Shown piece by piece: positions 5,813-41,108 of a DNA stretch of 41,108 nucleotides. The DNA is from a virus: the IMG/VR virus record IMGVR_UViG_3300025009_000216, positions 1 to 41,108 of that record; one strand, written 5' to 3'. Below the pieces are notes generated by a model that was given only the letters and a program-made list of their open reading frames with translations, was not told the DNA's origin and did no database searches. The first letter of the stretch is position 1; each line of letters starts with the position of its first letter. The position numbers were made by a program, and so were the translations under genes.

Positions 5813-5832
5813 TTGCCTTGTCCCTTTTTTTT
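5801..5832 (+). terminator. Rho-independent terminator between converging operons
   Basis: A perfect 9-bp stem (GGACAAGGC / GCCTTGTCC), a 5-base loop and a run of eight T end the plus-strand replication operon. The T run touches the stop codon of the giant minus-strand gene. For minus-strand transcripts the same hairpin is followed by only three T, so it may slow the late transcript but is clearly stronger in the plus direction. Confidence 0.92.
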
Positions 5833-8800: not shown

Positions 8801-11800
8801 TTGTTTCAACACATTATTATTATTTTTAGAAACATATTGCCTATAAATATATTGAAGCATAATCCAATTAGAAATTAAATCATCTTTATCTAATCTAAGA
8901 TGACTATAAAATCTAGCACTAGGCGTATCTCCCCAAACAGTCATTATGCTTTTTAAATCGCCCTGAGGTACTAATGTATGAAGAGCAAGTTTAATATGAG
9001 CTTCATAAGGTTTAATAAGATGCGGATTTTTAATAGCCATTCTTGATCTTTCAAATCCTTTGCTTACTTTAGTGAGAGCCTTACCCATAGTAAGACTGAT
9101 CTCATCTGCTTGGCTATATTTAAAATATTCTAAGATACCATCTACATCTATAGCTTTTCTATAGGCATACTGACTGAACCCATCTGTTAAAGAGAATAAC
9201 ATCTTTGATGCATTAAGATGTTGAGTATACTGCAAGAGAGTTAACTGTTTAACTTTTTCATAATGAGCAGGATTAGTTAAGTTAATGTTCTCTATAGGAT
9301 GACGCTTTAAATACTGAGCCATAAAAGCCTCAATATTTTCATTTACATAATCTGTAAAGAACTTATTATAAAGCCCGTCTTCAAATTTTTCTTTACTAAG
9401 AAACTGATTTTTCCATTGTCTGTTATCACTTCCAATTTGTTTTAACTTTTCATATAGCTCAGTAGAAGCAGTCCTAACAAGATGTTCCCAGTCTGGGTCT
9501 ATTGCAACTCTTTTATCTATACCAGACTTACCTATAGCTTTATTTGTTTGGATTTGACCTAAATCATCTGCAAGTTTTTTTAATAAGTTTGCAAAGGCCC
9601 CGTTATTAGGAGCTATCAATTTATCAATACCTTCAGGTCCATCCTGTTTTAGGGCATACTTTTTGAGATGCTTTCTAATAATAAGTTGCTCATTAAGGCC
9701 TACAGTGTAAAAGCCATCCAACTCACGCAACATAGCTAAAGTATCTTTCTTTATAAAATGTTCAAAATAATTTATATCCTCATCAGATATTCCAACTCTT
9801 TTCATGCGATCCATAAGCTGCCCTATATCAAAGCCTTCACCATTATGAAAGACTAATTGTGTAAGTTTTTGGTCATTAGTTTTTAACATATCTATAAAGC
9901 TTTGTAGCATGGCTTGTTCATCAGTATACATACCTTTTTCACTAGCCTTAATATAATAGTCTAAGCGTTTCTCTACAGTGTCGAGTTCAGGTAAATCTTT
10001 ATACTTACTAGCTAAGAAACTTTCAGCAGGGATATCAAAAGTATCTGCTCTACTAAGTTTACGAATAAGAGACCCGGACTCTCCTCCGTAGACTTTCCAG
10101 CCTATCTGGTGTACAGAACCGATGTTAGCATTAAAGCCTGGAGTCTCTATATCACAAATGATATATTTAATATATGATCTTGGAAATTTCTTTTTTAAGA
10201 AAGCTCGTATAACAGCTTCTGTTATTTTAACATCAGCTTCAGCTTCATGAGCAGGAAGCTTTTCAACACCATAAAGTTCCATCATAGCTTTTTTAACTTT
10301 AGGGTCTTCTTGAAGCTTCTCTAATTTAAGAGAACGTTTTGCATCTGAATTTGCATAGTCTTCAATCTTTTGAATAAGCTCTTTAAATTTATAATCAAAG
10401 TTATTCAAAAAATTACGAGGAGATATCCCAGCAAGACCCTGGACTACATCTAAGAAGATGTTGTGGGTTAAGTCTCTAATATTGCTATTAGATAAATCAT
10501 TTAAAAAATGAGCATAGTTATCAAAGTGTGTAGACATATTGATAATTTCTCTAGCTATGTTTACAGCATCTGCCATATTTGCAGTTTGTCCTGTAGCTTT
10601 ATTAGTAACCGGTCCATTAAATGAATTAGCCATTGTATGAATATAGGCCCCAAGTCCTTCAGCATTGTTATTAATTGAAGCAACCAGTTCATTAACTTTT
10701 TCAATATTCATTAAAGACATGTTTGTATAGAGCTGAGATAATTTCAACTCATAGTAGATTGTTCTGGCTCCCAAAGATATCATACGATTTGTCATAGCTA
10801 CAGGATGATTATCTGCTAACATTTCTAATAATGTAGCAAAATCAGCAGGGTCTGTAGAACCTATGTTCATTATTGTAGGTGTTGCATCACTACTAATTGT
10901 GCTATGTTTAACAGGGGGCTTACCATATCCTTTAGGTAAAGGAGACTCTGTTTGTTTTAATACATCCTTAATTAACTCTATAAGTTTTTTATCAATTTTA
11001 GCTACATCACCCTTAGACAAAGAAGCTAAGATATCTCTTTGTAAACCTGGGATATCATCAGCACCACCCGTATATTTTTTTACAGTAGTTATAATATCCT
11101 GAATAAAAGCAGGTGTCTTATCAGTTAAGTGCTTAGCCATATCCACAACATAATCTTCTAATCTTTTAACTACTTGATGTTGGGCTGTTTTTATTTTATT
11201 ATAATAAATACGCTCACCACTAACAGGCGCATTGTTTTTTAACTTATCTGCAATACCTTGCACTATGCGTTGAAGATTTGTCCAAACCTCACTATACGCT
11301 TCCATATCTGTCGGGTTTACTGCGAGGAATGAATTAATAGCTTCTATAAGAACATGGTCATCTCCACCGACTATATCCTTAATCTGAGATATATATTGCT
11401 CTGGATCGTCCGTAAAAATTTCCACAATCTGTTTTTTAATATTATCAATATTATCTGGTTCAAGTATATCTATATTAGTCTTTCTAGCTTCTTTCTCAAA
11501 CTGACTATCTTGTATTTTCTGAATTAATGGATTTTGTGTCCTTTCTGCAAAGTTAAGTCTATCTGAATAGGACTTGTAAACCTTACCTAACACTTCATTA
11601 GGTTTAAGGGCATCTTTGATCTCATCAAATATTTGATTATAAGAGTCTGTTATTTCTCCAAGCTTTATAGCATACTCATCAAATTTAAATACAATATTAT
11701 TTAAATCAGTCCCTGCATCAACAGCATCTGAAATAGTATTTAGAGTACCTTGAATTGCTTCTTTAACAGCACCTTCAAAGGCATTAAGAACTTCAGTTAA

Positions 11801-20795: not shown

Positions 20796-21242
20796 TTATA
20801 TCTCTACTATTGCGTAATTAGGATAAAAGAATATTGTATCCGCATCAATTACATACCCAATGCATTGTCTCCATTTACCCACAGTTACAGGTGGAGTTTG
20901 TGTGATCAATCCTGCGGTAGCATCTGAAACCCATAATAGTCCAGAAAATCCTGATGCGGGAGTCCAGTTCCATGCTGTATTTCTTATGGGACCAAATGTG
21001 TGGATTTCTCTTTCACCGGTTCCGGTCTCATTACATATGGCAACACAAGGTAATGTCGCTACTGCATCTGCTTTAGCTTTGTTATAGCCTGTAGAGGACA
21101 TGTACAAAGCATCTCCTACGGTGCACGACACAGCCATGGTACCTTTCATGGCTATGCCATCTTTGTCACCATTCACCATTTGAGATATTGTGGATATTAG
21201 TTTAAATCTGCCGAATGCAAAAAATCCACCTAGTATATTCAT
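20796..21242 (-). CDS. Putative capsid/tail decoration-type protein
   Basis: 148 residues, Gly/Ala/Thr-rich and beta-rich: AVSCTVGDALYMSSTGYNKAKADA, then NWTPASGFSGLLWVSDATAGLITQTPP and QCIGYVIDADTIFFYPN. This order (entry to low-level 'GD-x-x-Y-x-s-s', 'W-x-P-G..L-[WY]-[VL]-S', 'Q-x-I-G-Y-v-x-x-A-x-x-[IL]-x-F-x-P') is typical of a small beta domain often fused to or beside phage fibres. It starts ten bases after GGAGT and is transcribed with the fibre genes on both sides. Confidence 0.55.
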   Translation of the reverse strand: MNILGGFFAFGRFKLISTISQMVNGDKDGIAMKGTMAVSCTVGDALYMSSTGYNKAKADAVATLPCVAICNETGTGEREIHTFGPIRNTAWNWTPASGFSGLLWVSDATAGLITQTPPVTVGKWRQCIGYVIDADTIFFYPNYAIVEI

Positions 21243-22410: not shown

Positions 22411-23202
22411 TTAATTGAAGAATGCTCGCCCTGAGAAGGCGGCACTGAACTGTATCCTTACTACATCTAGTGAAAGGTAAGTTATCTCACCCATTACTAC
22501 ACTGTCACCACTATCTACAACAGTTACACTAGGGTATCTGTTGAGATTGTGGGTAACTTGCCAGGTTGCTGAAGGAACTTGCTGGGCAAATATAAACGGT
22601 TCGATATCTCTACCGTCTCGTCCAGGATCGCCCTTTTCACCCCTAGGACCTTGTTCTCCAGGTGGTCCTGCAACTGGTATCAATTGTGATTCGATATGGG
22701 GGCCTTCACAAACCTCAATGACTATCTCTGTAGTAGAGCATTCTGTTTCGGCGATATCATCGCAATAATACTCAGCTTCGCAAGTATCGCCGTCTGCGAA
22801 AAAACCCTGCCCACCTACGGAAAATTCTGAAGGTATTTGCATTGTGTAATCCCTCTGCATAAGGAAAAGGGCTTGAGCATACTCCTTCTGAAGTATAGGT
22901 GCTGACATAGCTCCTTCTTCGTCTACTACATAAAATTTATAAGCTGCTCCAACGAGCACAACTGATCTTATATATTTATCTATGAAGAAGTCGTAGTTTG
23001 GGTATACATGTGCTCCTTCAACAGGAGGTTCTGAGACTGGGTAGGCTTCTTCTGTAAAATCTGAAAATGCTGGGAAACAGGAATTCATGGCTGTGTTGAT
23101 ATCATCGATAACTGCGTCGAGGTAAGGCAACATAGCAGTATACATCAGCTGTTCACCAGCTAACTTGCTATTGACTCCTATTACTATATTATTTAAAAGC
23201 AT
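22411..23202 (-). CDS. Putative head-tail adaptor/fibre hybrid with a short collagen stem
   Basis: 263 residues in three parts. The N-terminal ~125 (FPAFSDFTEEAYP, YDFFIDKYIRSVVLVGAAYKFYVVDEEGAM, MQRDYTMQIP) is an alpha-helical domain like those encoded near adaptor genes in podoviral clusters. After an acidic Cys-containing linker, six Gly-X-Y triplets (GPPGEQGPRGEKGDPG) form a short collagen stem. The C-terminal ~50 residues (WQVTHNLNRYPSVTVVDSGDSV) form a fibre-tip beta domain shared by many phage structural proteins. The combination suggests that a protein docked near the portal carries an outward fibre tip. That is inference. Confidence 0.6.
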   Translation of the reverse strand: MLLNNIVIGVNSKLAGEQLMYTAMLPYLDAVIDDINTAMNSCFPAFSDFTEEAYPVSEPPVEGAHVYPNYDFFIDKYIRSVVLVGAAYKFYVVDEEGAMSAPILQKEYAQALFLMQRDYTMQIPSEFSVGGQGFFADGDTCEAEYYCDDIAETECSTTEIVIEVCEGPHIESQLIPVAGPPGEQGPRGEKGDPGRDGRDIEPFIFAQQVPSATWQVTHNLNRYPSVTVVDSGDSVVMGEITYLSLDVVRIQFSAAFSGRAFFN

Positions 23203-24435: not shown

Positions 24436-25668
24436 TTATATTACGTTGACCTGTGTAGGAACGCAGATATAATCAACAACAGCTTCAAGCCTGGTGCAAC
24501 CAAACCCTACTGAATTTATTTTGAATCCGATGGACTGTCTCTGATCGATAGGATCGAGAACACCGGTGGAACCCTTAGCTTTGACATACATCTTGGTCTG
24601 ACCTTCCCCTGTGAGGCCGGTACGAACAAGAGCGTCTTTGCCTATGACGAGGACGTGCTGAGCTTTGAACTCGAACCAGTCATTCTCGCCAGGGAGGACA
24701 TTAGCGGCATTCCATGCATCCAAATCCCATACCTTCTGGTTAGGAATATAGGAAGCGTCATCGCCGGTTCTACCATCTTTGACCCAACCGTTGACAGTCG
24801 AAACTACAGGAACTGGACCTATCGTCGCGTCTTCTGCTATATCAGCATAGTCATAGTCTGTGTCGGGGAGGATGCTTACACGATACATTCTTTTGGTCGG
24901 TTTCGCTGCGGTCACATAATCAGATGCGGTCGGAACGAGCATGTGCTCATAGAACTCCATGTCGAACATAGGGACAAGCATTCCATCGTCATACATGGTC
25001 TTCGTGGTGTTGTTGAAGGTCATGTATTTTTCAACTATCGGATCGGCGATCATGTCATAGTAAAACTCCGGAGAGCCTATTACATGGTATCTACCGTTGC
25101 TTCTCGGTTTTACGAGAGCTTTCTTCAGAGACAATACGATCAACCTGAGGTCAACCATATTAGGAACTGAAGCAGGAGTCAAAGCTGCGAAGTTTGCAGC
25201 GCCATTAGCGTAGTATTTCTGAGCGATGGAGAACAGGGTCTCTCTGGCAAGCAGATCGAGAGTTTCCATAGCAACGAGAGAATACTCTTTGCTGTAATGG
25301 GCCACTATCGGGTCAACTGCGGCGAAGTCCACTTTGTCAGTGAATTCCATGTAGCGACCGTACTGGAAGGCGTTCATTTCATACTTCTCAACCGAACCTT
25401 TATCAGACTTAGGCGGGATGCCTTCATCTAACGGTACAGTGTGAGCTTGCAATGGAGCCCATCTACGAACTTGCAGTTTGTCAGCTTTCTCCTGGATAGG
25501 CATCTCATCTGCGAGTCTGAAGTATATATACTGAGATGCGTCATACCTGATAGTGTCCAAAAGCTGCTTCGAATAAAACAGTTCGGGATTGATTACGCCG
25601 ACTCCGGCGTTGTTGGCCATTTCGATATAGGTTGCTATATCTGCGGTTGCATTTAACATCAATGCCAT
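24436..25668 (-). CDS. Major capsid protein (N4-gp56 family)
   Basis: 410 residues from the ATG ten bases after AAAGGAG; an upstream GTG at 25677 is only one base from that site and is unlikely. Blocks match the N4-gp56-type HK97-fold capsid family: an early helix leading to FRLADEMPIQEKADKLQVRRW, the E-loop-like LQAHTVPLDEGIPP, SVEKYEMNAFQYGRYMEFTDKVDF, and a C-terminal strand VDYICVP. It lies directly after a scaffold-like gene, and the pair is driven by the sigma-70-like promoter at 26.55 kb. Confidence 0.9.
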   Translation of the reverse strand: MALMLNATADIATYIEMANNAGVGVINPELFYSKQLLDTIRYDASQYIYFRLADEMPIQEKADKLQVRRWAPLQAHTVPLDEGIPPKSDKGSVEKYEMNAFQYGRYMEFTDKVDFAAVDPIVAHYSKEYSLVAMETLDLLARETLFSIAQKYYANGAANFAALTPASVPNMVDLRLIVLSLKKALVKPRSNGRYHVIGSPEFYYDMIADPIVEKYMTFNNTTKTMYDDGMLVPMFDMEFYEHMLVPTASDYVTAAKPTKRMYRVSILPDTDYDYADIAEDATIGPVPVVSTVNGWVKDGRTGDDASYIPNQKVWDLDAWNAANVLPGENDWFEFKAQHVLVIGKDALVRTGLTGEGQTKMYVKAKGSTGVLDPIDQRQSIGFKINSVGFGCTRLEAVVDYICVPTQVNVI

Positions 25669-29032: not shown

Positions 29033-30685
29033 TTAGAATTCATAATCAACTACGACTCTATCATTGTCCCGGTCTGGTTCGTCGAACAATGTTAGGACGC
29101 GATACTCCTCTTCGATATCTAGTTCTTCATAGGTCTCACTGATCTTCCTACCACCTGAGTACGCCCCATGTATCAGATTACGAGGATCAGCGGGAAGTTC
29201 CATTGTCATCCACTCCAGACAGTTGATGCAGTGGTTGTTCTTATCTACGGGCTTATCAGAGAACCCGTCATTAATATCTGATTGACTTGCAAATTTGTAA
29301 CTCTTTAGTTCCTTTACAAGAACCGGGCAGGTCTCCCCATATATCCGTATCTTGCCTGATTCAAGATAGGTATTGAGGCGGTATATCCTTGCATCTAGGT
29401 TGATATGCCCTGGTTTAAAGACCAACCCGTAGTCTATGAAGTGATCTGCCAGGGTTTTCTTGTCATAATCCCGCTTAGGTGCGGATTTTGGGTCTATTAA
29501 TGGCTGACATACCCAGTTACCCGGGGGGATATCCTTGGCTCCCTCGTGAAATAGCTTAGCTAGTTCTTCAACTGACTTGTTATTTGTAACGATTTCCTTA
29601 TATATAACAAGGAGGTTCTCTTTTTCGTCTATTGCCCCGAAGAGGAAGACCGAATTATCTGCAAGACCGTAGTCAAAGGCCACTATCCTACGCCATCTCT
29701 TCTCAGGCTCCTGGGCTTTTACCACATATTTCATAGCACTGGGGTAAATCAACCCCTCTGCGTATAGGAAGCTACCGTGTATGAACTTATTTATCCACCA
29801 TGCCGGCCTATTTTTCTTAAGAGAGTCTAGGAAGTTAGGTGGAAGGTACTGATTAGCGTCTGATGCTGTGATATGGCTTGAGATATCTTTATCTCGTTCT
29901 GTTTCTAAGATTGCGAACTTGTCTAAGACCTTACCATGTTTGTGTATTTCGTCGGAGTAGTCCAGTAAATCTGTTTTAATCCAACCCGGGTCCGGATTTG
30001 ACTCCGAAATTCCCTTACACCAGTCATGGTCTATGACCGGAACGAGCTCACCTTCTGTAGTCTTATGATAAACGATATCGCCATTTTCATCTAAGAGCGG
30101 TGTAGTAGCAGCTAAAGACCTGAGACGAGCTTTTAACTGGATGTAGGCTTCCGGTTTGATTTCAGAAGCCTCTACCGCAACCCACATGCTTAGCGTATAT
30201 GACCGGATTTTACCGGCATCATCAAACGGACGGTACATTACCCTATGCCCATTAACGAAATTCACATGTTGCTTTTGAGCTGACCAGTCGGCTATGAACT
30301 CTTCAGGTATGTCTGCCTCTATATCCCGTTTAATAGTAGCCTCATACTGTGACGCAACGTTCGCGCCTATTAGGGTATTACCCTTGGGCGTAAGGAAAAT
30401 GTGTTTGAAGACCTCTTCCCGGGATGTGTAGGTTTTGCCTGAGCCATAACCGCCAAAGTTACCTACTATGCGATGTGGGTCACGGTGAACGGCTGCCTGA
30501 TGAGCCTGAGGTACATAGGTATTGATGTAGGTATTACATCTTGTACACTCACGCCAAAACTCTGACGGTGCTCCTGAGTGAGACTTCGAGATTTCAGTTA
30601 CCGACCCGCAACGTGGGCAGTGGGTGAAATCACGACGTAGCTTTTTGGTTTCTAAGCTTGTCGGAGTTTCTCTTGATAATGGCAT
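29033..30685 (-). CDS. Terminase large subunit with N-terminal zinc ribbon
   Basis: 550 residues. The ATPase has a Walker A motif GGYGSGKT (K84) and a strand WVAVEASEI that fits the Walker B position. The C-terminal RNase H-like nuclease starts with VAFDYGLADNSVFLFG (first metal Asp), has an RDYDKKTLADHF block, and ends with a long acidic tail. Unusually, residues 23-50 form a CPRC...CTRC zinc ribbon before the ATPase. It packages DNA at the portal vertex. TTGGAGG precedes the ATG, which lies 56 bases inside the small upstream gene. Confidence 0.92.
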   Translation of the reverse strand: MPLSRETPTSLETKKLRRDFTHCPRCGSVTEISKSHSGAPSEFWRECTRCNTYINTYVPQAHQAAVHRDPHRIVGNFGGYGSGKTYTSREEVFKHIFLTPKGNTLIGANVASQYEATIKRDIEADIPEEFIADWSAQKQHVNFVNGHRVMYRPFDDAGKIRSYTLSMWVAVEASEIKPEAYIQLKARLRSLAATTPLLDENGDIVYHKTTEGELVPVIDHDWCKGISESNPDPGWIKTDLLDYSDEIHKHGKVLDKFAILETERDKDISSHITASDANQYLPPNFLDSLKKNRPAWWINKFIHGSFLYAEGLIYPSAMKYVVKAQEPEKRWRRIVAFDYGLADNSVFLFGAIDEKENLLVIYKEIVTNNKSVEELAKLFHEGAKDIPPGNWVCQPLIDPKSAPKRDYDKKTLADHFIDYGLVFKPGHINLDARIYRLNTYLESGKIRIYGETCPVLVKELKSYKFASQSDINDGFSDKPVDKNNHCINCLEWMTMELPADPRNLIHGAYSGGRKISETYEELDIEEEYRVLTLFDEPDRDNDRVVVDYEF

Positions 30686-31076: not shown

Positions 31077-31270
31077 GTTTAGGGGGAAGGGGAGGTAAGT
31101 TTAGGAAGGAGGTATTTTTATTTGTTTACTAGAAAAATTAAAAGAAGAAGAGATTCTTAATATATTATATATATCGTATATACCTTTATGAGCAAATTTT
31201 AAACCCTACCCCCTACCTTACTGCACACAGTAGTGTTTAAGTTTGTATCTAATACACAGGAGGCAATACA

Positions 31271-33749: not shown

Positions 33750-33900
33750 TTTACCATTTATACTTACAGTATATATCTATATATTATATATATTATATTA
33801 TATTATTATTTATATATTTATTAATATTATTATGTATATTTATACATTTTCATTTTTTTCAAATTTGTGTTTTTTTTAAAATTTTTTTTTGGACTCTTCA
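33750..33900. other. Extremely AT-rich low-complexity tract
   Basis: About 150 bases are almost only A and T (ATTATATA-type runs, then poly-T at 33871-33880 and 33886-33893). There is no supported gene. Such a tract melts easily and lies directly beside the iteron repeats, so it could be the unwinding element of a replication origin. Confidence 0.6.
33833..33846. promoter_or_regulatory. Operator-like palindrome, early control region (copy 1)
   Basis: TGTATATTTATACA, a TGTATA/TATACA palindrome with a 2-base centre. It is identical to the site at 34121-34134 and differs by one base from two sites at the capsid promoter. Confidence 0.55.
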
Positions 33901-33928
33901 AAATAGACTACTTTATTTCTCCCAAGTA

Positions 33929-34041
33929 GAACAAAAACTTTCACTTTGGTAGAACAAAAACGTTCTCACATCAAAATATGCCTTGAGAAAGAAATTATTC
34001 TACCACGGGGAACAAAAACTTTCTACTTTGGGGAACAAAAA
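33929..34041. repeat. Iteron-like repeats, possible replication origin
   Basis: GAACAAAAA occurs four times, at 33929, 33952, 34010 and 34033. The copies form two pairs with a spacing of exactly 23 bases, and within each pair the interval is similar (ACTTTC-ACTTTGG and ACTTTCTACTTTGG). Spacing near two helical turns places the sites on one DNA face. With the AT-rich tract beside them this resembles an iteron origin. No gene covers 33748-34195. Confidence 0.6.
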
Positions 34042-34120: not shown

Positions 34121-34134
34121 TGTATATTTATACA
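34121..34134. promoter_or_regulatory. Operator-like palindrome, early control region (copy 2)
   Basis: TGTATATTTATACA, identical to copy 1. It also forms one arm of a wider inverted repeat (ATGTATAAA at 34100-34108 with TTTATACAT at 34127-34135). It lies immediately upstream of the repeated promoter-like element that precedes the gene at 34196. Confidence 0.55.
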
Positions 34135-34138
34135 TTTT

Positions 34139-34177
34139 AATAAAAAGTATTTATTATTTGTGTTATAAAAATATTTT
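34139..34177 (+). promoter_or_regulatory. Repeated ~40-bp AT-rich element, copy A
   Basis: Core AATAAAAAGTATTTATTATT followed by TGTGTTATAAAAATATTTT. It aligns with four other copies, each on the plus strand and 30-60 bases before a gene. It ends two bases before the ribosome binding site of the next gene. No sigma-70 -35 hexamer is present at the right distance, so a dedicated polymerase or factor may read it. Confidence 0.6.
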
Positions 34178-34195
34178 GAGAGGAGTATCGCTATC

Positions 34196-34486
34196 ATGGT
34201 TAGTACTTTCTATAATCCAGTTTTAGGCAAAGTCTCTAAAGTCAACAACACACAATCAGAAGTCCTCATCACCTTGGACGGAGACACCGAAGTTTATGTA
34301 GTCTCTATTCCAAAAACAAAACGTTATCCCTTTATCAGAGGTATGACTGAGATCGAACTTCAACTCGGTTGCTCATTCGCCTTTGACATCGAACCATCAC
34401 CAATGCTAGAGTTTCTTCAGAGCAAAAAGCCAACCCTGCTGCTGAGGTCTCCATTCATTAACCTTGTATCATCCAGATCGTACTGA
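34196..34486 (+). CDS. Small beta-rich protein, unknown
   Basis: 96 residues, AGAGGAG 11 bases before the ATG. The first 70 residues are beta-rich (KVSKVNNTQSEVLITLDGDTEVYVVSI, SFAFDIEPS), which would suit a small OB- or SH3-like barrel. The C-terminus is less regular. It is the first gene after the putative origin and lies under element copy A. No family is recognised. Confidence 0.65.
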   Translation: MVSTFYNPVLGKVSKVNNTQSEVLITLDGDTEVYVVSIPKTKRYPFIRGMTEIELQLGCSFAFDIEPSPMLEFLQSKKPTLLLRSPFINLVSSRSY

Positions 34487-34496
34487 TTCCGCTTTG

Positions 34497-34539
34497 AAAT
34501 AAAAAGTAGTTATAGTTTGTGTATAAAAAATATTTGTGT
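34497..34539 (+). promoter_or_regulatory. Repeated AT-rich element, copy B
   Basis: AATAAAAAGTAGTTATAGTT then TGTGTATAAAAAATATTTG, aligned with copy A over its full length with few changes. It lies about 30 bases before the start of the next gene. TGTGTATAAA could act as an extended -10. Confidence 0.6.
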
Positions 34540-34568
34540 AGCGTTTCGACGCAGAAATGGAGTGTATC

Positions 34569-35042
34569 ATGGCTTTAACAAATCAGGAATTGATGGCAGC
34601 TTTTCGTAAACCGGTAGCACCAGACCTGCAGGAGGGTGTGTACAATGCAACAATCAAAGGCATTGAGTGCCCAGCAGCCGATGCAGCAGATCAGAAAATT
34701 GTAGTATTGCTTGAGCTTGAAGGCGGCAGAGTCGTTCGCAAGTTCATGTCATCCGAGAAAAACTTCGAAGTCGCAGGGGCTCAACTCAAAAGACAGTTCG
34801 GCCTTGGTGACAGAGCAGACCTCGGATTCGCAGACGTAGCTTACGAATGCATGGCCAAATTCGACAAGAAGGGCAAAGAAATCAAGCCCGCAGCACCGGT
34901 CAAAGTATTCGTATCCTTCGCAGATAACCCGGGAGGCGACCGTCCTTTTCCAAACTTCGATTTCGAAAAGACAGCCCCGCGTAAAGCAACAACCGGCACA
35001 GTACAAGCTGTCGCAGCTGCTGATGACGAGAAGATCGCATAA
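34569..35042 (+). CDS. Possible single-stranded DNA-binding-type protein
   Basis: 157 residues from the ATG after GGAGTG; an ATG 12 bases upstream overlaps that site. After a helical start come beta strands typical of an OB-like fold (EGVYNATIKGIECPAADAADQKIVVLLELEGG, RVVRKFMSS, APVKVFVSF) and a disordered end that finishes ADDEKIA, a weakly acidic tail. The 'Dp-x-eG-x-Y-x-a-x-i' beginning is often seen in phage DUF669-like ssDNA-binding proteins, but similarity is limited. Strong binding site, its own element (copy B) and a strong terminator suggest high expression as a single gene. Confidence 0.4.
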   Translation: MALTNQELMAAFRKPVAPDLQEGVYNATIKGIECPAADAADQKIVVLLELEGGRVVRKFMSSEKNFEVAGAQLKRQFGLGDRADLGFADVAYECMAKFDKKGKEIKPAAPVKVFVSFADNPGGDRPFPNFDFEKTAPRKATTGTVQAVAAADDEKIA

Positions 35043-35065
35043 TTAACTATTCCTTCCTATCTCTT

Positions 35066-35105
35066 GGGGAGTTCCGAGTTCAGACTCTGGAGCTTCCCTT
35101 TTTTT
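35066..35105 (+). terminator. Rho-independent terminator
   Basis: GGGGAGTTCCGAGT pairs (with small mismatches) with ACTCTGGAGCTTCCC around a TCAG loop, followed by nine T. It ends the single-gene transcript of the putative ssDNA-binding protein. Confidence 0.85.
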
Positions 35106-35142
35106 GCCACGCCCATAAGACCAAGTTCAATTAATGACCCAA

Positions 35143-35205
35143 GATCAAAGATCAAACTACAAAATACCGGTGATCCCCCTAGATCGATCTACGATCTTTT
35201 TTTTT
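35143..35205 (+). terminator. Second hairpin with T run inside a GATC-rich stretch
   Basis: AGATCG (35181-35186) and CGATCT (35192-35197) form a 6-bp stem followed by eight or more T, a plausible backup terminator. The 54 bases around it contain six GATC sites (35143-35196). The rest of 35106-35337 holds no gene, only AT-rich leader and the next repeated element. Confidence 0.45.
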
Positions 35206-35281
35206 AATATTTGCCCGGAGGACGTGCATTACCCTCATTATAATACATAAACTTATATACAATATATGCCAAAATTGGTAT

Positions 35282-35322
35282 AATTAAAAAATAGTTTAAA
35301 GTTGTGTTTATAAAAAATAATA
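35282..35322 (+). promoter_or_regulatory. Repeated AT-rich element, copy C
   Basis: AATTAAAAAATAGTTTAAAG then TTGTGTTTATAAAAAATAAT. It aligns with the other copies and ends just before the AGGAGG of the next gene. A TATAAT hexamer lies at its upstream edge (35278-35283) without a good -35. Confidence 0.6.
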
Positions 35323-35337
35323 TAGGAGGTACTGTCT

Positions 35338-35517
35338 ATGTCTAGACCCAAGTGGTGTGTACTCATCCCAAGCAAGGTGCCTAATCCTTACACAACTGCT
35401 CACTCAAAGAAACAACATCATATGCATGAGCTTATTGTTCAACAGCATAACTTTGAGCAACTCACATTTTTACATAGGTACATTGAGATCATGCGTTACA
35501 CTAAGACAGGGGGATAA
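35338..35517 (+). CDS. 59-residue small protein, unknown
   Basis: AGGAGG lies nine bases before the ATG. The protein is rich in His and Gln (KKQHHMHELIVQQHNFEQ), with SRPKWCVLIPSKVPNPY at the start and RYIEIMRYTKTGG at the end. It heads a run of very tightly packed small genes and its stop is one base from the next start. No family is recognised. Confidence 0.6.
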   Translation: MSRPKWCVLIPSKVPNPYTTAHSKKQHHMHELIVQQHNFEQLTFLHRYIEIMRYTKTGG

Positions 35518-35518
35518 A

Positions 35519-35635
35519 ATGGTTAACCCAGAAGATTTACTATGTGCAATGATTGTTATGTTCGTTATCGGAATGTTTGTAGGAAGCTTAATAGCTTACC
35601 TCGACTATAAAAACTTAAGGAGGAAACAGAAATGA
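35519..35635 (+). CDS. 38-residue single-span membrane protein
   Basis: ATG at 35519 after GGGGGA. A longer frame exists but its extra part lies inside the gene before. Residues ~7-27 form a membrane helix (LLCAMIVMFVIGMFVGSLIAYL), followed by a basic end (DYKNLRRKQK). The stop overlaps the next start (ATGA). Confidence 0.65.
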   Translation: MVNPEDLLCAMIVMFVIGMFVGSLIAYLDYKNLRRKQK

Positions 35636-35850
35636 AACTGTTCAACATCTTCAAGAAGAAACGCAAGGTAGTCCGACATTACAGTGCAACAAAAGAAGGT
35701 AAAGCAATCTTCTTAGCATCTCACCCTACATACAACCCCAAAGATGTTAAGATCAAACCTTATCCTGCACGACCTGTTAAAACCCGCGAACAAAAACTCA
35801 TCAACATCGCCCGCTCAAAGAATATACTGAAAGCTCTTAAAGCAAGATGA
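35632..35850 (+). CDS. Small highly basic protein
   Basis: 72 residues with a very high Lys/Arg content (FKKKRKVVRHY, KIKPYPARPVKTREQK, SKNILKALKAR). The strongest binding site in this cluster, AAGGAGG, precedes the ATG. It could bind nucleic acid or a membrane surface. Start and stop overlap both neighbours by four bases. No family is recognised. Confidence 0.65.
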   Translation: MKLFNIFKKKRKVVRHYSATKEGKAIFLASHPTYNPKDVKIKPYPARPVKTREQKLINIARSKNILKALKAR

Positions 35851-36044
35851 TTCAGTATTGTGCCTCCTGTCACAAAAAGTTTATGCGGGATGCGGCTAAG
35901 CCTCTTAATAAAGTATATGTTTCATACGTTACTGAGAGGCTTCGGCCTTTTTGGAATCACAACGATATCATTTTATATTTCTGCAGTACATGCTTTGCAA
36001 AATTTATCCCAACGAAGGAGATGCGAGATAATGAAATATGTTAG
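35847..36044 (+). CDS. Small zinc-ribbon-like protein
   Basis: 65 residues with two CxxC pairs (CASCHKKF near the start and CSTCFAKF near residue 47), the usual layout of a zinc ribbon. The four-base ATGA overlap with the upstream gene suggests coupled translation, since its own binding site is weak. It may bind nucleic acid or protein. Confidence 0.65.
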   Translation: MIQYCASCHKKFMRDAAKPLNKVYVSYVTERLRPFWNHNDIILYFCSTCFAKFIPTKEMRDNEIC

Positions 36045-36225
36045 AATAGCAGCACAACTTTTTATCTTTACAATGGCAATTTACTTTTACTTCCTAGCCT
36101 TTACATACAATAACTTCTGGTCCTGCATTGCTACGATATTTATAGCCTGTGCGTTAATGTGTTTTCTCGGGGTCACGTTAGAGTATCAACTAAATCATGA
36201 GGAGGAAGATGATGACAAAAGCTGA
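36031..36225 (+). CDS. Two-span membrane protein, unknown
   Basis: 64 residues from the ATG at 36031 after AAGGAG; a longer frame from 35860 has no binding site. Two membrane helices (AAQLFIFTMAIYFYFLAF and WSCIATIFIACALMCFLGV) lead to a very acidic tail (HEEEDDDKS). It overlaps both neighbouring genes by 14 bases. Confidence 0.65.
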   Translation: MKYVRIAAQLFIFTMAIYFYFLAFTYNNFWSCIATIFIACALMCFLGVTLEYQLNHEEEDDDKS

Positions 36226-36742
36226 TAATGCCTGGGTGATAGCTGATACACACTTCGGGCATAAGAACATTATAGATTATGCAGATCGTCCATTTAAAGA
36301 TGTACAAGAAATGAATGATGAAATGATCTACAGATGGAACAAAACTGTACTACCCGGTGACCAAATCTATATCCTAGGTGACTTTGCATTAACTGATAAA
36401 GCAACCTTAGAGAACATCTTAGGTGTATTGAACGGTCGTAAGTTCCTAATCGTGGGGAATCATGATAAAGGTATTCATCAAAAACTATGGTTTAGTATGG
36501 GAATAGAACTTATCAGTCCCTTTCCTATTATAATAGATCAGTTCTTTATTCTTTCTCATGAGCCTATGTATATTAACAATCATATGCCTTATGCTAATAT
36601 CTATGGCCATGTACACAGTGATGCAACTTATAAAGATGTAACCAAACAATCATTCTGTGCATGTGTCGAACGTATCAACTATACACCTATATGTTTGGGA
36701 GAAATTAAACGAAGAATGGAGAAAGCTGATGAAAGCAACTAA
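36212..36742 (+). CDS. Metallophosphoesterase (early region)
   Basis: 176 residues, starting at the second of two adjacent ATGs after AGGAGG. The metal ligands are complete: D12-x-H14 (ADTHFGHKNI), GDFALTD with D57, GNHDKG with N83-H84-D85, SHEP and GHVHSD. It is the compact form of the calcineurin-like phosphoesterases common in phages, which act on nucleotides or RNA ends. It is distinct in size and sequence from the one at 23.2 kb. Confidence 0.9.
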   Translation: MTKADNAWVIADTHFGHKNIIDYADRPFKDVQEMNDEMIYRWNKTVLPGDQIYILGDFALTDKATLENILGVLNGRKFLIVGNHDKGIHQKLWFSMGIELISPFPIIIDQFFILSHEPMYINNHMPYANIYGHVHSDATYKDVTKQSFCACVERINYTPICLGEIKRRMEKADESN

Positions 36743-36911
36743 AGCAATACTGTTCGCAGCAAATACTGCTCGTGAAATCAATACTCACATTGAAGAGTAT
36801 CTCAAAACTAACCCAACATATTGTATTATATCAGCCACAACAATCTGTACAGCTAATCAATACAAAGGTGAGTATTATGTCTGCACCTGTATTGTAGAAA
36901 AGGAACAATGA
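36729..36911 (+). CDS. 60-residue small protein, unknown
   Basis: ATG at 36729, seven bases after GGAG, inside the end of the phosphoesterase gene. It has an alpha-beta pattern (helix AREINTHIEEYL, strands YCIISATTICTA and EYYVCTCIVE). Four Cys are present without a clear metal motif. No family recognised. Confidence 0.55.
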   Translation: MKATKAILFAANTAREINTHIEEYLKTNPTYCIISATTICTANQYKGEYYVCTCIVEKEQ

Positions 36912-36912
36912 T

Positions 36913-37101
36913 ATGACATCATTTCATTTTACTATGGATTTACCAACCCCAACGATCCGAACATTTATGGACGATAATGGCAGAGTTTATCTAAACAAAG
37001 ATATCCGTCATGCTATGGACTTATTCCCAGGAGTTCAATTTGAAATACAGACCACACCAGATACAATTACTCTGAAGATAATCAAGCCAAAGGAGAAATA
37101 A
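36913..37101 (+). CDS. AbrB/SpoVT-like swapped-hairpin DNA-binding protein
   Basis: 62 residues. After a short leader comes RTFMDDNGRVYLNKDIRHAMDLFPGVQFEIQTTPDTITLKI, which follows the AbrB/MazE pattern: a basic-turn strand GRVYLNKDIRxAM, a G at the loop tip, and a closing IxLKxI strand. Such dimers bind AT-rich palindromes, which makes it a candidate for the TGYATA-NN-TATRCA sites here. AAAGGAAC precedes the ATG. Function as an antitoxin is less likely because no toxin is seen next to it. Confidence 0.6.
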   Translation: MTSFHFTMDLPTPTIRTFMDDNGRVYLNKDIRHAMDLFPGVQFEIQTTPDTITLKIIKPKEK

Positions 37102-37102
37102 T

Positions 37103-37342
37103 ATGCGTGGTAAAGTTATCGAAGTAGACATACATCATGATATAATTCTTATTCGTGTGCAAAAAAGTGATGCCATACATTTATTAGAATGTTACTCAAG
37201 CTACGGTAACGGACCAGAATATGCCTACAATTTAACAAAATTTAATGAACAATTAAACACAAGGTACGAGAGTTTATGGGAACTATTAAAGACATGCCCC
37301 ACCTTAACATTTGATAGCCCATTTATTCAACAACTCTATTAA
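37103..37342 (+). CDS. Small unknown protein
   Basis: 79 residues, AAGGAG eight bases before the ATG, directly behind the AbrB-like gene. It begins with a beta hairpin (GKVIEVDIHHDIILIRVQKSDAIHLL) and continues with a mixed helical end (FNEQLNTRYESLWELLKTCP). It is the last gene before the sigma-70-like promoter at 37.39 kb. No family is recognised. Confidence 0.6.
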   Translation: MRGKVIEVDIHHDIILIRVQKSDAIHLLECYSSYGNGPEYAYNLTKFNEQLNTRYESLWELLKTCPTLTFDSPFIQQLY

Positions 37343-37389
37343 AAAACCGGCCCCCTGAAAATTTAAACAAATAACAGGCTTGACCGGTC

Positions 37390-37418
37390 TTGACAACACT
37401 TTTCTAGTATAATATAAT
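37390..37418 (+). promoter_or_regulatory. Consensus sigma-70 promoter
   Basis: TTGACA (37390-37395), exactly 17 bases, TATAAT (37413-37418). Both hexamers are perfect. GACCGGTC, an 8-bp palindrome, abuts the -35 (37382-37389) and could be an operator. It drives the cluster that leads to the ubiquitin-like genes; its leader contains the repeated element copy D. Confidence 0.9.
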
Positions 37419-37451
37419 TATTCTACCCCAACAACAGTAAATTATACCTAT

Positions 37452-37492
37452 AAAGTAAAAAATAGTTATATATAGTGTAAAATAAAAATAAT
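37452..37492 (+). promoter_or_regulatory. Repeated AT-rich element, copy D
   Basis: TAAAAAATAGTTATATATAG then TGTAAAATAAAAATAATAAA. Its first 20 bases equal copy E almost exactly. Because a perfect promoter lies about 35 bases upstream, this copy would be transcribed, so it may be either a second promoter or a leader element. Confidence 0.6.
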
Positions 37493-37502
37493 AAAGGAGT
37501 TG

Positions 37503-37940
37503 ATGCCATTGATGGATCAAGAAACCTTCGAACGCCTCATTGTTAAGTATCGAACCAATGATGAACTTCGAAGAACTACTATCGACGCTATCGCCAGTGC
37601 ATTGTTGGAGAAGCCGGACTTAAGCACAGAGAACGAAGAAATAATAGGTGAACTGCAAGAAATCGTTGAGAAAATATTACATCTTTATGGTGCATTTATG
37701 CTCAAGTGGGTAGCTTCACTGCCGGACCCAACACCTGAACCAAAATTGCCTGACCCAATCAAATTACGTCGAGTAGAAACGGTCCAAACGATTATGTGTA
37801 AATACGATGAAGTGACTGATACCGTAACAATCTTAGGTGACGAAGGCACAGTGCCTAAAGAAACAATTGAAATGATTCTGGAGGCAAAAGGCCTTAACAA
37901 AAACACTCGTGTAAAGTTTGTACCAAACAAGAAACATTAA
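37503..37940 (+). CDS. Unknown protein at the head of the Ubl cluster
   Basis: 145 residues if started at the ATG 37503, three bases after AAAGGAG. TTG 37509 and ATG 37512 have better spacing and are equally likely. The N-terminal ~80 residues are helical and acidic (FERLIVKYRTNDELRRTTIDAIASALLEK); a Pro-rich hinge (PDPTPEPKLPDP) leads to a small beta-rich domain (TIMCKYDEVTDTVTILGDEG, TRVKFVPNKKH). No family recognised. It belongs by promoter and spacing with the genes behind it. Confidence 0.65.
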   Translation: MPLMDQETFERLIVKYRTNDELRRTTIDAIASALLEKPDLSTENEEIIGELQEIVEKILHLYGAFMLKWVASLPDPTPEPKLPDPIKLRRVETVQTIMCKYDEVTDTVTILGDEGTVPKETIEMILEAKGLNKNTRVKFVPNKKH

Positions 37941-37980
37941 AATAAAAAATAGTTATATATAGTGTTAAAATAAATATAAT
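37939..37980 (+). promoter_or_regulatory. Repeated AT-rich element, copy E
   Basis: AATAAAAAATAGTTATATAT then AGTGTTAAAATAAATATAAT. It is the closest copy to D. A small palindrome, TAGGG-ATA-CCCTA (37981-37993), follows directly. The next gene starts about 40 bases later. Confidence 0.6.
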
Positions 37981-38022: not shown

Positions 38023-38412
38023 ATGTCAAAAATCAAAACACTGGGAGACGCAATGGTTCTCACCAGCACAGTCAAGCTCGAGGACATCATGCAGCTTGCG
38101 AAGTACAATCCAAAAGCCTTGGTTATAGTGGAGCCTAAAACTGAGGACGAAATCTTCAGAATAACACCAAGCTTCAAACCATCCTTCGGAAAAGCCGGCG
38201 CAGCATTTAACACTGCAAACGCAGATGGTTTTGCTGAAATGACGATCCTACTTCCTGCAGGTTTATCCAACGAAGAGAAACTGACTTGGATCAAGGAATG
38301 CTATGGCGTAGGCTTACTCGAACTGAATAAGATCGAGACAACTATCGCAAGTGCAGTCGCCGAACTGAACGGTAAGTTCGACACCATGACCGAAAGCATC
38401 ACCATCGGCTAA
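38023..38412 (+). CDS. Unknown protein linked to the Ubl cluster
   Basis: 129 residues after AGAGGAGAG. It is alpha/beta: SKIKTLGDAMVLTSTVKLEDIMQLAKYNPKALVIVEP, EIFRITPSFK, then GKAGAAFNTANADGFAEMTILLPAGL and a helical end with KIETTIASAVAELNGKFD. The stretch around FNTANADGFAEMTILLP looks like a conserved core. It immediately precedes the ubiquitin-like gene and may be a partner or target of the modifier. I do not recognise a named family. Confidence 0.7.
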   Translation: MSKIKTLGDAMVLTSTVKLEDIMQLAKYNPKALVIVEPKTEDEIFRITPSFKPSFGKAGAAFNTANADGFAEMTILLPAGLSNEEKLTWIKECYGVGLLELNKIETTIASAVAELNGKFDTMTESITIG

Positions 38413-38431
38413 ATCCCATCAAAGCCCGGAC

Positions 38432-38477
38432 AAGGTTGCGAATCAATACAGGGCGTTGATAATACAATCGTAACCTT
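38432..38477 (+). terminator. Long interrupted hairpin before the Ubl gene
   Basis: AAGGTTGCGA (38432-38441) pairs with TCGTAACCTT (38468-38477), and ATCAA with TTGAT inside it, leaving a 9-base loop and a 7-base bulge. TTAACTTTT follows. It may partly terminate or protect the transcript, changing the ratio of the 129-residue protein to the ubiquitin-like protein. Confidence 0.5.
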
Positions 38478-38510
38478 TTAACTTTTCAACAAACCTGAGG
38501 AGGTTTACAC

Positions 38511-38738
38511 ATGATTTCAGTAACAGTTGGTAGTGGACTGAGCAGAAAAGCATATTCAGTTGATCCAGAAAGAACTCTCAAGTCAGTCCTTGATGAGCAT
38601 CAGATCAATTATTCAGTAGCACCGGTTCATCTTGACGGTTCGTCAGTTTCATCCGCAGAACTTAACAAAACATTCACGGAAATGGGAGTCGTAGATAGCT
38701 GCTACCTTATCGCTGTCGTAAAGAGCGACAACGCCTAA
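38511..38738 (+). CDS. Ubiquitin-like beta-grasp protein (ThiS/PRTRC-C-like size)
   Basis: 75 residues, GAGGAGG before the ATG. The order fits the beta-grasp fold: strand ISVTVGSG, strand RKAYSVDP, helix TLKSVLDEHQI, strand APVHLDGSSVS, short helix ELNKTFTEMG, strand CYLIAVVK. The 'VxLDG-x-x-V' and 'L-x-x-T-F-x-E-x-G' blocks are usual in bacterial ubiquitin/ThiS-like proteins. The C-terminus is KSDNA and lacks the Gly-Gly used for activation, which is notable. It lies two genes before a JAMM peptidase, the classic partner of such modifiers. Fold assigned from pattern only. Confidence 0.7.
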   Translation: MISVTVGSGLSRKAYSVDPERTLKSVLDEHQINYSVAPVHLDGSSVSSAELNKTFTEMGVVDSCYLIAVVKSDNA

Positions 38739-38747
38739 TCTCTCAAC

Positions 38748-38784
38748 AAGGGGCATCATACAGAGTATGGTGTCCTTTTTTTTT
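38748..38784 (+). terminator. Terminator after the ubiquitin-like gene
   Basis: AAGGGGCATCATA pairs with TATGGTGTCCTT (one bulge) around CAGAG and is followed by nine T. It would stop much of the transcription after the small modifier, so the modifier should be made in excess over the large protein and peptidase behind it. Confidence 0.85.
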
Positions 38785-38807
38785 AAACTTTAGAAAGGAG
38801 TAAAGTT

Positions 38808-40412
38808 ATGTTTGTAAATGGTTCATATACTTGCGAGGGTTATAGCCTAGACCCACGCTTAGAAAAACTCAAAAGAGATTTATCAGAATGGCTAGATGTA
38901 GGTACACAATCTTTTAAATATCGCAGCAGTACTAAAGAATCTAGCAGATGTGTCATAGACAATCCGGCACGAGTAATGATGAGCTTAATTAATTATTACA
39001 GAAACGACCTAGTTGGTGTAGATAACACAATAACTATCGAACATAATGTAGTAGAATACCCACCTAGTCACACAACTTACCAATATGATTGGCAAATAAA
39101 TCCACCTGTAGGCTTTACACCAAACAGACGTTCAAGCCCAACTAACAATGTTATTAAATTTGTACATGTCGCTAAATCATCAATTGGCATGTTTCAAAAA
39201 TTTGATGAATATTTTGCAGATGAAAAGCATATCTCAACCGGGCTACAAACCAGCTCTCAACATCGTATCCGTGTATATAAACCCCTGGCGTGGGGAAGTC
39301 ATGCCCTCCTTGTGGTGACTAACACCTATACCTGGGAGTTATACAGGCAAGTGGTTGCTCTTCTTCCTTTAATATTCCCTGACTTACTAGGAGATAAATT
39401 CGAAGAAGTCAAAGAAATATTTGAAGCTTATGGTGCATCTGACTTTGGTAAATGGATTGATGGTATCAATACATGGATTACTTCCAGAGACTTAGTATCC
39501 TATTATAAAAGAGCATTATTAATCAAATGCTTTCAAAGCACTCAGGAGCGTAGGATCAGAATATACACAGATAGTGAAGTTGCTGCTCAACGTAAAATAA
39601 GAGAATATGAAGACACACTCCGAGGACTTCAAAACAACTTACGAGACCTTCAATATACCCTTCTTGGCATCAGGGCTACTCCAGCACAAGACAACGAAGA
39701 AGTTGTAAATTACATCTTAAATCATAAACATATTACAGCTGCAGAGAAAATCGACTCAATAATTATACTAGATATTGAAACCCCTCTAGAATACTGGGAC
39801 GATGAACCTTTAAATATGTACTTTAAAAATCCACAATCAAGTTTAAACACAATACCCCAACTTGGTTGGATATTCAAAAAGATATTTAAAGAACGAGTGT
39901 TAAAAATACAAACTCATACCCGAGTTCATATCGATCTCTCTACCAATAAAATCAACGCAGAGTCTTGGTCACATGTTGAAACTTCCCAATTTGACTATAA
40001 TGCTATAATGCAACCACATTTAATGCGCTATAATTGCTGGGGAAATAACAGAATTAACATTGAAAGACTATTAACTTCAGGTGATTACATCGAAGCAATT
40101 GAACAAATTCTTGCAGCCTGTAAAAATTTAAATTTCGTAGACTCAACTGTTGTAAGTCATCTTATAAGCACAATAAACAACACATATCTTGTAAACCCAT
40201 TTGTCTTTGATCCGGCCTCAAAAGAATGGTACAATAAAGAACAACTTTATACACTATATAAACAAGAAAAAGAGGAGAAGAAAGCACATGAAGCCAATCA
40301 AGCTAACCCCGGAACTTCAAGCCCAACTAATGAAACAGTTCGAAGAGTTCCTGATAACGGAGAGAATGCAGTCGGACAAACTGAAGTTCGAAACGACCCT
40401 GACCTCTACTAA
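38808..40412 (+). CDS. Large protein with possible E2-like His...Cys motif
   Basis: 534 residues after AAAGGAG. The N-terminal ~220 residues are alpha/beta without known motifs. A coiled coil lies at about 255-285 (AAQRKIREYEDTLRGLQNNLRDLQ). The C-terminal domain (~310-460) contains VHIDLSTNKINAES, then QPHLMRYNCWGNN with H404 and C410, then INIERLLTSGDYIEAIEQILAAC. An H-P-like turn followed six residues later by Cys is reminiscent of E2 conjugating enzymes and their bacterial relatives. The last ~55 residues are disordered and overlap the next gene. The E2 idea depends mostly on context; a scaffold or a target adaptor are alternatives. Confidence 0.5.
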   Translation: MFVNGSYTCEGYSLDPRLEKLKRDLSEWLDVGTQSFKYRSSTKESSRCVIDNPARVMMSLINYYRNDLVGVDNTITIEHNVVEYPPSHTTYQYDWQINPPVGFTPNRRSSPTNNVIKFVHVAKSSIGMFQKFDEYFADEKHISTGLQTSSQHRIRVYKPLAWGSHALLVVTNTYTWELYRQVVALLPLIFPDLLGDKFEEVKEIFEAYGASDFGKWIDGINTWITSRDLVSYYKRALLIKCFQSTQERRIRIYTDSEVAAQRKIREYEDTLRGLQNNLRDLQYTLLGIRATPAQDNEEVVNYILNHKHITAAEKIDSIIILDIETPLEYWDDEPLNMYFKNPQSSLNTIPQLGWIFKKIFKERVLKIQTHTRVHIDLSTNKINAESWSHVETSQFDYNAIMQPHLMRYNCWGNNRINIERLLTSGDYIEAIEQILAACKNLNFVDSTVVSHLISTINNTYLVNPFVFDPASKEWYNKEQLYTLYKQEKEEKKAHEANQANPGTSSPTNETVRRVPDNGENAVGQTEVRNDPDLY

Positions 40413-41108
40413 AGACACACAAATCATACGACCACTAATTAAATTTACTGCTACAGCTTATCTGAAGATGACAAATCTGATGATGACCACAGCTACAGAA
40501 ATTGGTTGGCATGGTACAATCATCCGAGAGGATAGTGTCTACACCGTCACAGATATCTTCATGTATCCACAAATTGTTACAGCAGCAACCGTAGAAACTG
40601 ATGAGGCTGACTATGTAAAATGGTGTATGGAACTTCCTGATGATGTTATTAATTCTCTACGCTTTCACGGACATAGCCACGTTAATATGGCTGTAAATCC
40701 ATCCGGAATAGACAATACATTTTACGGTAAACTCTTACAACAAATCCCTGAGGATGATTTCTATATCTTTATGATTAGGAATAAATTAGGTTCTGTAAAC
40801 GTATGGTTATATGACCTAGCTACTAATTGTTTATATGACAGTGCAGATATTGATATTGAGGTTGAACTAGATGCCGAGACATCTTTAGCTGAATGGACCA
40901 GAGATCAAAAAACAGAGTTTATCACCTTACCTCCGGTAAAAACATTTGGAGCAACTCAACCAAACACCGGAACAACTACACTAACTGATCCTCCAAAGAT
41001 AAAAAGAACAGGAACAGAAACGGGAGAATACCGTTATAACAAAAAAACAAAAAGAGATGAATGGCATCCCTACACCACTAAAGAAATGCTCGACAAAGAA
41101 ATAGAGGC
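40288..41108 (+). CDS. JAB/JAMM-domain metallopeptidase (3' end outside window)
   Basis: At least 273 residues from an ATG ten bases after GAGGAG; the frame is still open at the window end. The N-terminus (MKPIKLTPELQAQLMKQFEEFL) is helical. The JAMM site is complete: catalytic E71 in TEIGWHG, H129-x-H131 in HGHSHVNM, S139 and D142 in NPSGID. The family cuts ubiquitin or ubiquitin-like proteins from precursors or conjugates. A Thr/Pro-rich C-terminal part follows (LTDPPKIKRTGTETGEYRYN). The start lies 125 bases inside the previous gene, in another frame. An E1/ThiF-like gene could lie just beyond the window. Confidence 0.88.
   Translation, partial: MKPIKLTPELQAQLMKQFEEFLITERMQSDKLKFETTLTSTKDTQIIRPLIKFTATAYLKMTNLMMTTATEIGWHGTIIREDSVYTVTDIFMYPQIVTAATVETDEADYVKWCMELPDDVINSLRFHGHSHVNMAVNPSGIDNTFYGKLLQQIPEDDFYIFMIRNKLGSVNVWLYDLATNCLYDSADIDIEVELDAETSLAEWTRDQKTEFITLPPVKTFGATQPNTGTTTLTDPPKIKRTGTETGEYRYNKKTKRDEWHPYTTKEMLDKEIE

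Follow-up and report, generated by a model that had tools for sequence, protein, structure and literature searches.

A repeated, oriented AT-rich element before early genes of a short-tailed phage lineage is a candidate promoter class

The podoviruses phiEco32 and 7-11 have promoters that are read by a phage sigma factor, and the genes for both the sigma and an anti-sigma protein are known; in 7-11, long motifs drive the late genes (PMC4331800). In the prophage SP-beta, a repeated element named SPBRE is found at the promoters of scattered early genes and is the 15-bp binding motif of MrpR, a recombinase-like repressor (PMC10516654). Cluster K mycobacteriophages carry start-associated sequences, in which a 13-bp motif, GGGATAGGAGCCC, lies immediately at the gene start (PMC3203893).

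The element described here occurs in a 41-kb IMG/VR contig from an uncultivated virus that resembles short-tailed phages, which was analysed over its full length of 41,108 nt (the window). The terminase of the window is 35% identical to those of the Paenibacillus podovirus API480 and of SV21, and a DNA comparison with known phages and plasmids gave no match. Another contig, G001, is 99.99% identical to the window over 16 kb, extends 4.6 kb past its right end and carries the same five copies of the element. The late genes point leftward, recombination and DNA polymerase genes lie at the left end, and the early arm points rightward from 31271 onwards, beginning with element-free genes, followed by element-bearing genes and then by a ubiquitin-like operon. 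Searches detected no relatives of the first early protein (423 aa), and the only relative found for the 161-aa gene behind copy 2 is in the near-identical contig. Some tens of related contigs were collected by terminase and DNA polymerase searches. Contig L076, binned as Candidatus Nealsonbacteria, has a phage DNA polymerase at 44% identity and represents either phage sequence or a misbinning. The copies in the window are:

34139–34176, plus strand: element copy 1 (core 34142–34163), before the 96-aa gene at 34196–34486
34498–34535, plus strand: element copy 2 (core 34501–34522), before the gene at 34557/34569–35042
35283–35321, plus strand: element copy 3 (core 35286–35307), before the gene at 35338–35517
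37454–37491, plus strand: element copy 4 (core 37457–37478), before the gene at 37500/37512–37940
37941–37978, plus strand: element copy 5 (core 37944–37965), before 38023–38412, the first gene of the ubiquitin-like operon

When both strands of the window were scanned with a matrix, these copies were the top five matches, each before a gene, and with leave-one-out matrices every copy outscored all non-copy positions on both strands. The sequence TAAAAARTAGTTATANNNNGTGT occurs at three or fewer mismatches five times on the plus strand and never on the minus strand, against an average of 0 to 0.1 in shuffles. The five plus-strand copies of the preliminary description are thus borne out (starts at 34139, 34498, 35283, 37454 and 37941) as the best matrix hits, without a shuffled equivalent, and strand and position bias are evident over the whole window. 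The copies do precede start codons, at about 9–44 nt from copy end to start (34196, 34557/34569, 35338, 37500/37512 and 38023) rather than at the 20–60 bases first proposed. A diverged sixth copy, suggested at 31229–31255, did not hold up; it has seven mismatches, chance alone gives about 36 sites at six or fewer, and with the relatives' matrix it ranks at about 560–1270. A match in G001 (45484-equivalent) was discounted, as it falls within a helicase gene.

In the core of the window copies, an AAAAAR block is followed, after 6–8 bases, by nnTTGTG and then by an AT run. The 5' half and the GTGT hold a fixed register, while the AT run at the 3' end jitters by 0–2 bases, so that GTG, GTGT or GTGTT is followed by TATAAA or TAAAAT. 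Copies 4 and 5 match almost completely over a stretch of 37 nt.

Five more distant relatives (G010–G013 and G016; DNA polymerase about 50%) have a diverged element, ATTAAGTnTTTATnCTTTGTGATTTTTAT, which lies on the early strand ahead of ribosome sites. It surfaced de novo in G010 and G013 by a pairwise intergenic comparison that left the window out, and the sites of G012 and G011 were reached by a mixed matrix and those of G016 by a two-block model; the sites of G011 and G016 were found in part with the motif already in hand, and their separation from shuffles by a rigid matrix is not clean. The relatives' core consists of a TTAAGT block, 6–8 bases, CTTTGTGA and then an AT run, with the spacer shorter by one base at three sites of G011. 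For a non-circular test, a matrix was built from the five de novo sites of G010 and G013 only, and its top six hits in G012 are the six sites of that genome, all on the early strand. In its 24-column form the same matrix scores window copy 1 highest among 82,170 positions, copy 2 comes third and copies 3–5 fall at ranks 406–684; the 32-column form gives a weaker link (copy 1 second, copy 2 at rank 102). Copy 1 heads the window with matrices built on relatives alone, dropping to second with the widest, whereas copies 3–5 reach only about the best 0.2–1% with the narrower ones and do worse with the widest. Because copies 1 and 2 rank high and copies 3–5 lower, it appears likely but not certain that the two versions are related, the link being carried by copies 1 and 2 and by the synteny of copy 5.

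Convincing copies are absent from G002, the closest relative of the window, and from the distant G005, G007, G009, G014 and G015. In G007, TAAAAAAAAGAAAAT-n-ACAARTGAA appears twice ahead of early genes (29102–29221 and 30381–30458, minus strand) and is possibly that phage's counterpart of the element. When 2.9 million viral contigs were scanned for exact matches, the relatives' core matched three contigs, all of this group, and the window's version matched only G001. No description of the element was found in a literature search of incomplete coverage.

The family of the 38023 gene keeps the element in five genomes (the window and G010–G013), the MKLNE family keeps it in four (G010, G012, G013 and G016) and two more families keep it in two genomes each, with ribosome sites about 10–35 nt downstream of the elements. 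Four of the relatives' copies (G010 46739, G012 7917, G013 48309 and G016 48453) stand 0–5 nt behind T-run hairpins (−15 to −19 kcal/mol each). With terminators directly upstream, transcription of the next gene therefore probably starts at the element, since at a spacing of 0–5 nt a further promoter ahead of the gene would have nowhere to fit. At 18 of 19 relatives' sites there is no 9/12 sigma-70 match within −110 to +45, which is only mildly unexpected at the base rate.

The ubiquitin-like operon (38023–41108 and beyond the window end, L032) starts with a 129-aa leader gene, the protein of which gave a confident structure model (pLDDT 92.9) yet no match in a fold search. Its other members are a 75-aa protein, taken as ubiquitin-like from its context, a 534-aa protein, a JAB/MPN-like protein with HGHSHVN and a ThiF/E1-like enzyme, whose G012 homologue has matches to ThiF models and a weak one to PRTRC_ThiF. 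Nearly all relatives examined keep the 75-aa protein, which is missing from SV21 and API480.

Other signals lie around the window copies:

34121–34134, no strand assigned: operator-like dyad TGTATATTTATACA, just upstream of copy 1, with a second copy at 33833–33846
35066–35105, plus strand: intrinsic terminator (−21.4 kcal/mol) between the copy 2 gene and copy 3
35181–35205, plus strand: weak terminator-like hairpin with a T run (−6.2 kcal/mol), 78 nt before copy 3
35256–35284, plus strand: sigma-A-type promoter (TATACA-N17-TATAAT, TG present) running up to copy 3, which begins at its −10
37390–37418, plus strand: perfect (12/12) sigma-A-type promoter TTGACA-N17-TATAAT, about 35 nt upstream of copy 4
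38748–38787, plus strand: intrinsic terminator after the ubiquitin-like gene at 38511–38738

Copy 3 is isolated from the preceding gene by the strong terminator and the weaker hairpin, and a sigma-A-type promoter is present there too. A short hairpin, GCGT-TTCG-ACGC, read from the sequence, separates copy 2 from its ribosome site, and TAGGG-ATA-CCCTA forms a hairpin downstream of copy 5. Of the window copies, only 3 and 4 have a good sigma-A match upstream, and a weak 9/12 match overlaps copy 1. The TGTATATTTATACA dyad is also present in G002, as two in tandem, and is probably an operator. Repeats of GGGGAACAAAAACTTT occupy 33894–34041, and G002 has a similar GAGAACAAAAACGTTCTC beside repeated DnaA-box-like GTTATCCACAG, which suggests a replication origin.

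It seems fairly probable, judging from the sequence comparisons, that this short-tailed phage lineage has a promoter class of its own, to which the copies belong either as whole promoters or as the core that sets promoter specificity. The preliminary description had offered promoters as a possibility, and this reading gains support from the one-strand recurrence in relatives, the orthologous genes and the four terminator-adjacent copies. The sigma-A promoters just ahead of copies 3 and 4 speak against it, as do the TATAAA and TAAAAT in the 3' half of the window copies, where host sigma-A alone could suffice. Such a lineage-specific promoter would probably be used by the host polymerase together with a phage factor: the phage would use ordinary sigma-A promoters to express an activator or sigma-like protein of its own, which would redirect the host RNA polymerase to the rightward-pointing elements, where transcription would start about 10–25 bases upstream of the ribosome sites of early and middle genes. 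What is observed directly is a repeat biased in strand and position that recurs in relatives and, in four cases, has a terminator directly upstream; the start at the element and the recogniser we infer. A more far-reaching and tentative proposal is that the class is read by a new type of phage transcription factor, neither a T7-type polymerase nor a recognisable sigma, that co-evolves with its sites across the ubiquitin-operon podoviruses. If the elements are promoters, the lineage redirects transcription via a factor without a recognisable sequence signature, for which the motif is a direct bait, and the element marks co-activated genes, including the leader of the phage ubiquitin-like operon.

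Three readers had been put forward: a phage polymerase, an alternative sigma factor and a phage-modified host enzyme. The first finds no backing, as no T7-type RNA polymerase (PF00940) was detected in 17 records including the window, G001 and relatives, whereas T7 itself, the positive control, scores 1e-110. Nor does the second, as no Sigma70_r4 domain was found in the window or G001, and the hits in G005, G006, G012 and G013 were all below the cut-off. Family listings covering 59 early proteins contain no sigma factor. The early proteins of the window, G012 and G013 include helicases, a reverse transcriptase, an exonuclease and zinc ribbons, and neither a sigma factor nor an RNA polymerase is among their listed families; G012 has one weak helix-turn-helix protein, with relatives in G016. 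Within this phage group, reverse transcriptase genes (RVT_1, phrog_2825) are located in L032 (G001 past the window end), L085 (11801–12967) and L086 (4382–5074). Of the three, the phage-modified host enzyme is left as the strongest candidate, by elimination only, as distant polymerases and unsequenced genes could still provide the reader. A phage factor acting on the host polymerase is therefore favoured, because the core is unlike sigma-A and no phage polymerase was found, and it may be one of the early proteins that went unrecognised or be encoded in the unsequenced segment, which lies between the right end of G001 and the left end of the window.

A polymerase within the giant 2567-aa virion protein (5831–13534, minus strand) was considered and rejected, as no DxDxD-type or T7 motif set is conserved in the giant proteins; the PDB profile matches were for the most part to DEDDh exonucleases and included no RNA polymerase. 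The DEDDh exonuclease-like region (residues about 1125–1300) is conserved in relatives and sits inside a protein that is probably ejected.

Among the other explanations, the least improbable, though unlikely, is by analogy with SPBRE that the copies are operators, at which a phage repressor or activator would bind over or beside promoters. Repeated AT-rich sites before scattered early genes match that pattern (PMC10516654), several relatives' copies contain a weak AAG-N8-CTT dyad, copies 3 and 4 adjoin sigma-A promoters, and the relative SV21 has a AAGTGTTGACACTT dyad across −35 boxes. Against these points, the element is not symmetric and keeps one strict orientation, the AAG-N8-CTT dyad is incomplete in most copies, the distance to a sigma-A promoter varies (0 versus about 35 nt) with no such promoter at most copies, and the early proteins searched yielded no recognisable integrase, recombinase or repressor. 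In Paenibacillus phage SV21 itself (L022), the AAGTGTTGACACTT dyad lies on the −35 box of several sigma-70 promoters (20915–21043, 22435–22532 and 24965–25093) and is an apparent operator.

Next, and also unlikely, host sigma-A by itself might read the copies as ordinary promoters, with TGTGn-TATAAA as an extended −10 and the A-tract as an UP element. Like such promoters, the window copies have an AT hexamer and a TG, with TATAAA or TAAAAT 0–2 bases past the GTG in every case. Unlike them, the element lacks a −35 and has a variable spacing between the TG and the hexamer; the relatives have TTTATW or GC-containing sequence instead (GTGTACTTTGGTTG at G013 50423), with the additional CTTTGTGA staying conserved, and neither TTGACA-N16-18-TATAAT nor TGnTATAAT at a fixed spacing occurs within their elements. 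The misfit to sigma-70 spacing that had been pointed out earlier is upheld for the element itself; sigma-A promoters nevertheless end at copy 3 and precede copy 4. The operator reading keeps a small probability, and so does plain sigma-A, mainly for the window, where TATAAA or TAAAAT comes just after the GTG. The promoter patterns known for SPO1 gp28, SigD and T4 late genes do not fit the element either.

It is quite improbable that the element acts after transcription, as an RNA leader serving as translation enhancer, stabiliser or protein-binding site. The copies directly precede ribosome sites, some relatives often carry AT-rich leaders, and the upstream sigma-A promoters could transcribe copies 3 and 4; such a role is disfavoured because there is no conserved or consensus RNA fold, and because upstream transcription would rarely reach copies placed directly behind terminators. 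Convincing covariation was likewise absent, and Rfam gave no match. Least probable of all are promoters of a phage RNA polymerase too divergent to detect or encoded in the missing part. Such a polymerase would suit a strictly oriented, lineage-specific motif with slight −10 conservation, an incompletely sequenced genome and the presence of giant virion proteins; the PF00940 and giant-protein results speak against it, as does the spacing shifted by one in G011.

Compared with the described systems, the candidate promoter element shares its layout with phiEco32/7-11, SPBRE and the cluster K sequences, and agreement in every defining feature was found with none of these. Like the cluster K sequences (PMC3203893), the copies are mostly in one orientation, just upstream of starts and kept with gene families, but they are AT-rich, promoter-like and upstream of the ribosome site, and inspection of the copy sequences showed no 13-bp GGGATAGGAGCCC at the window starts. 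SPBRE is similar in being repeated before scattered early genes; the present element is longer and oriented, and no MrpR-like protein was recognised. It differs from phiEco32/7-11 in its core (TTAAGT-n-CTTTGTGA here, TGATGT/TAATGTATA there) and in that no sigma gene was found in the window, G001 or the 59 early proteins. As in phiEco32/7-11 (PMC4331800), a few well-conserved, short and oriented motifs are repeated before the middle genes of a podovirus, where those phages redirect the host polymerase, and their sequence drifts among relatives with a one-base gap and was revealed by pairwise intergenic comparison.
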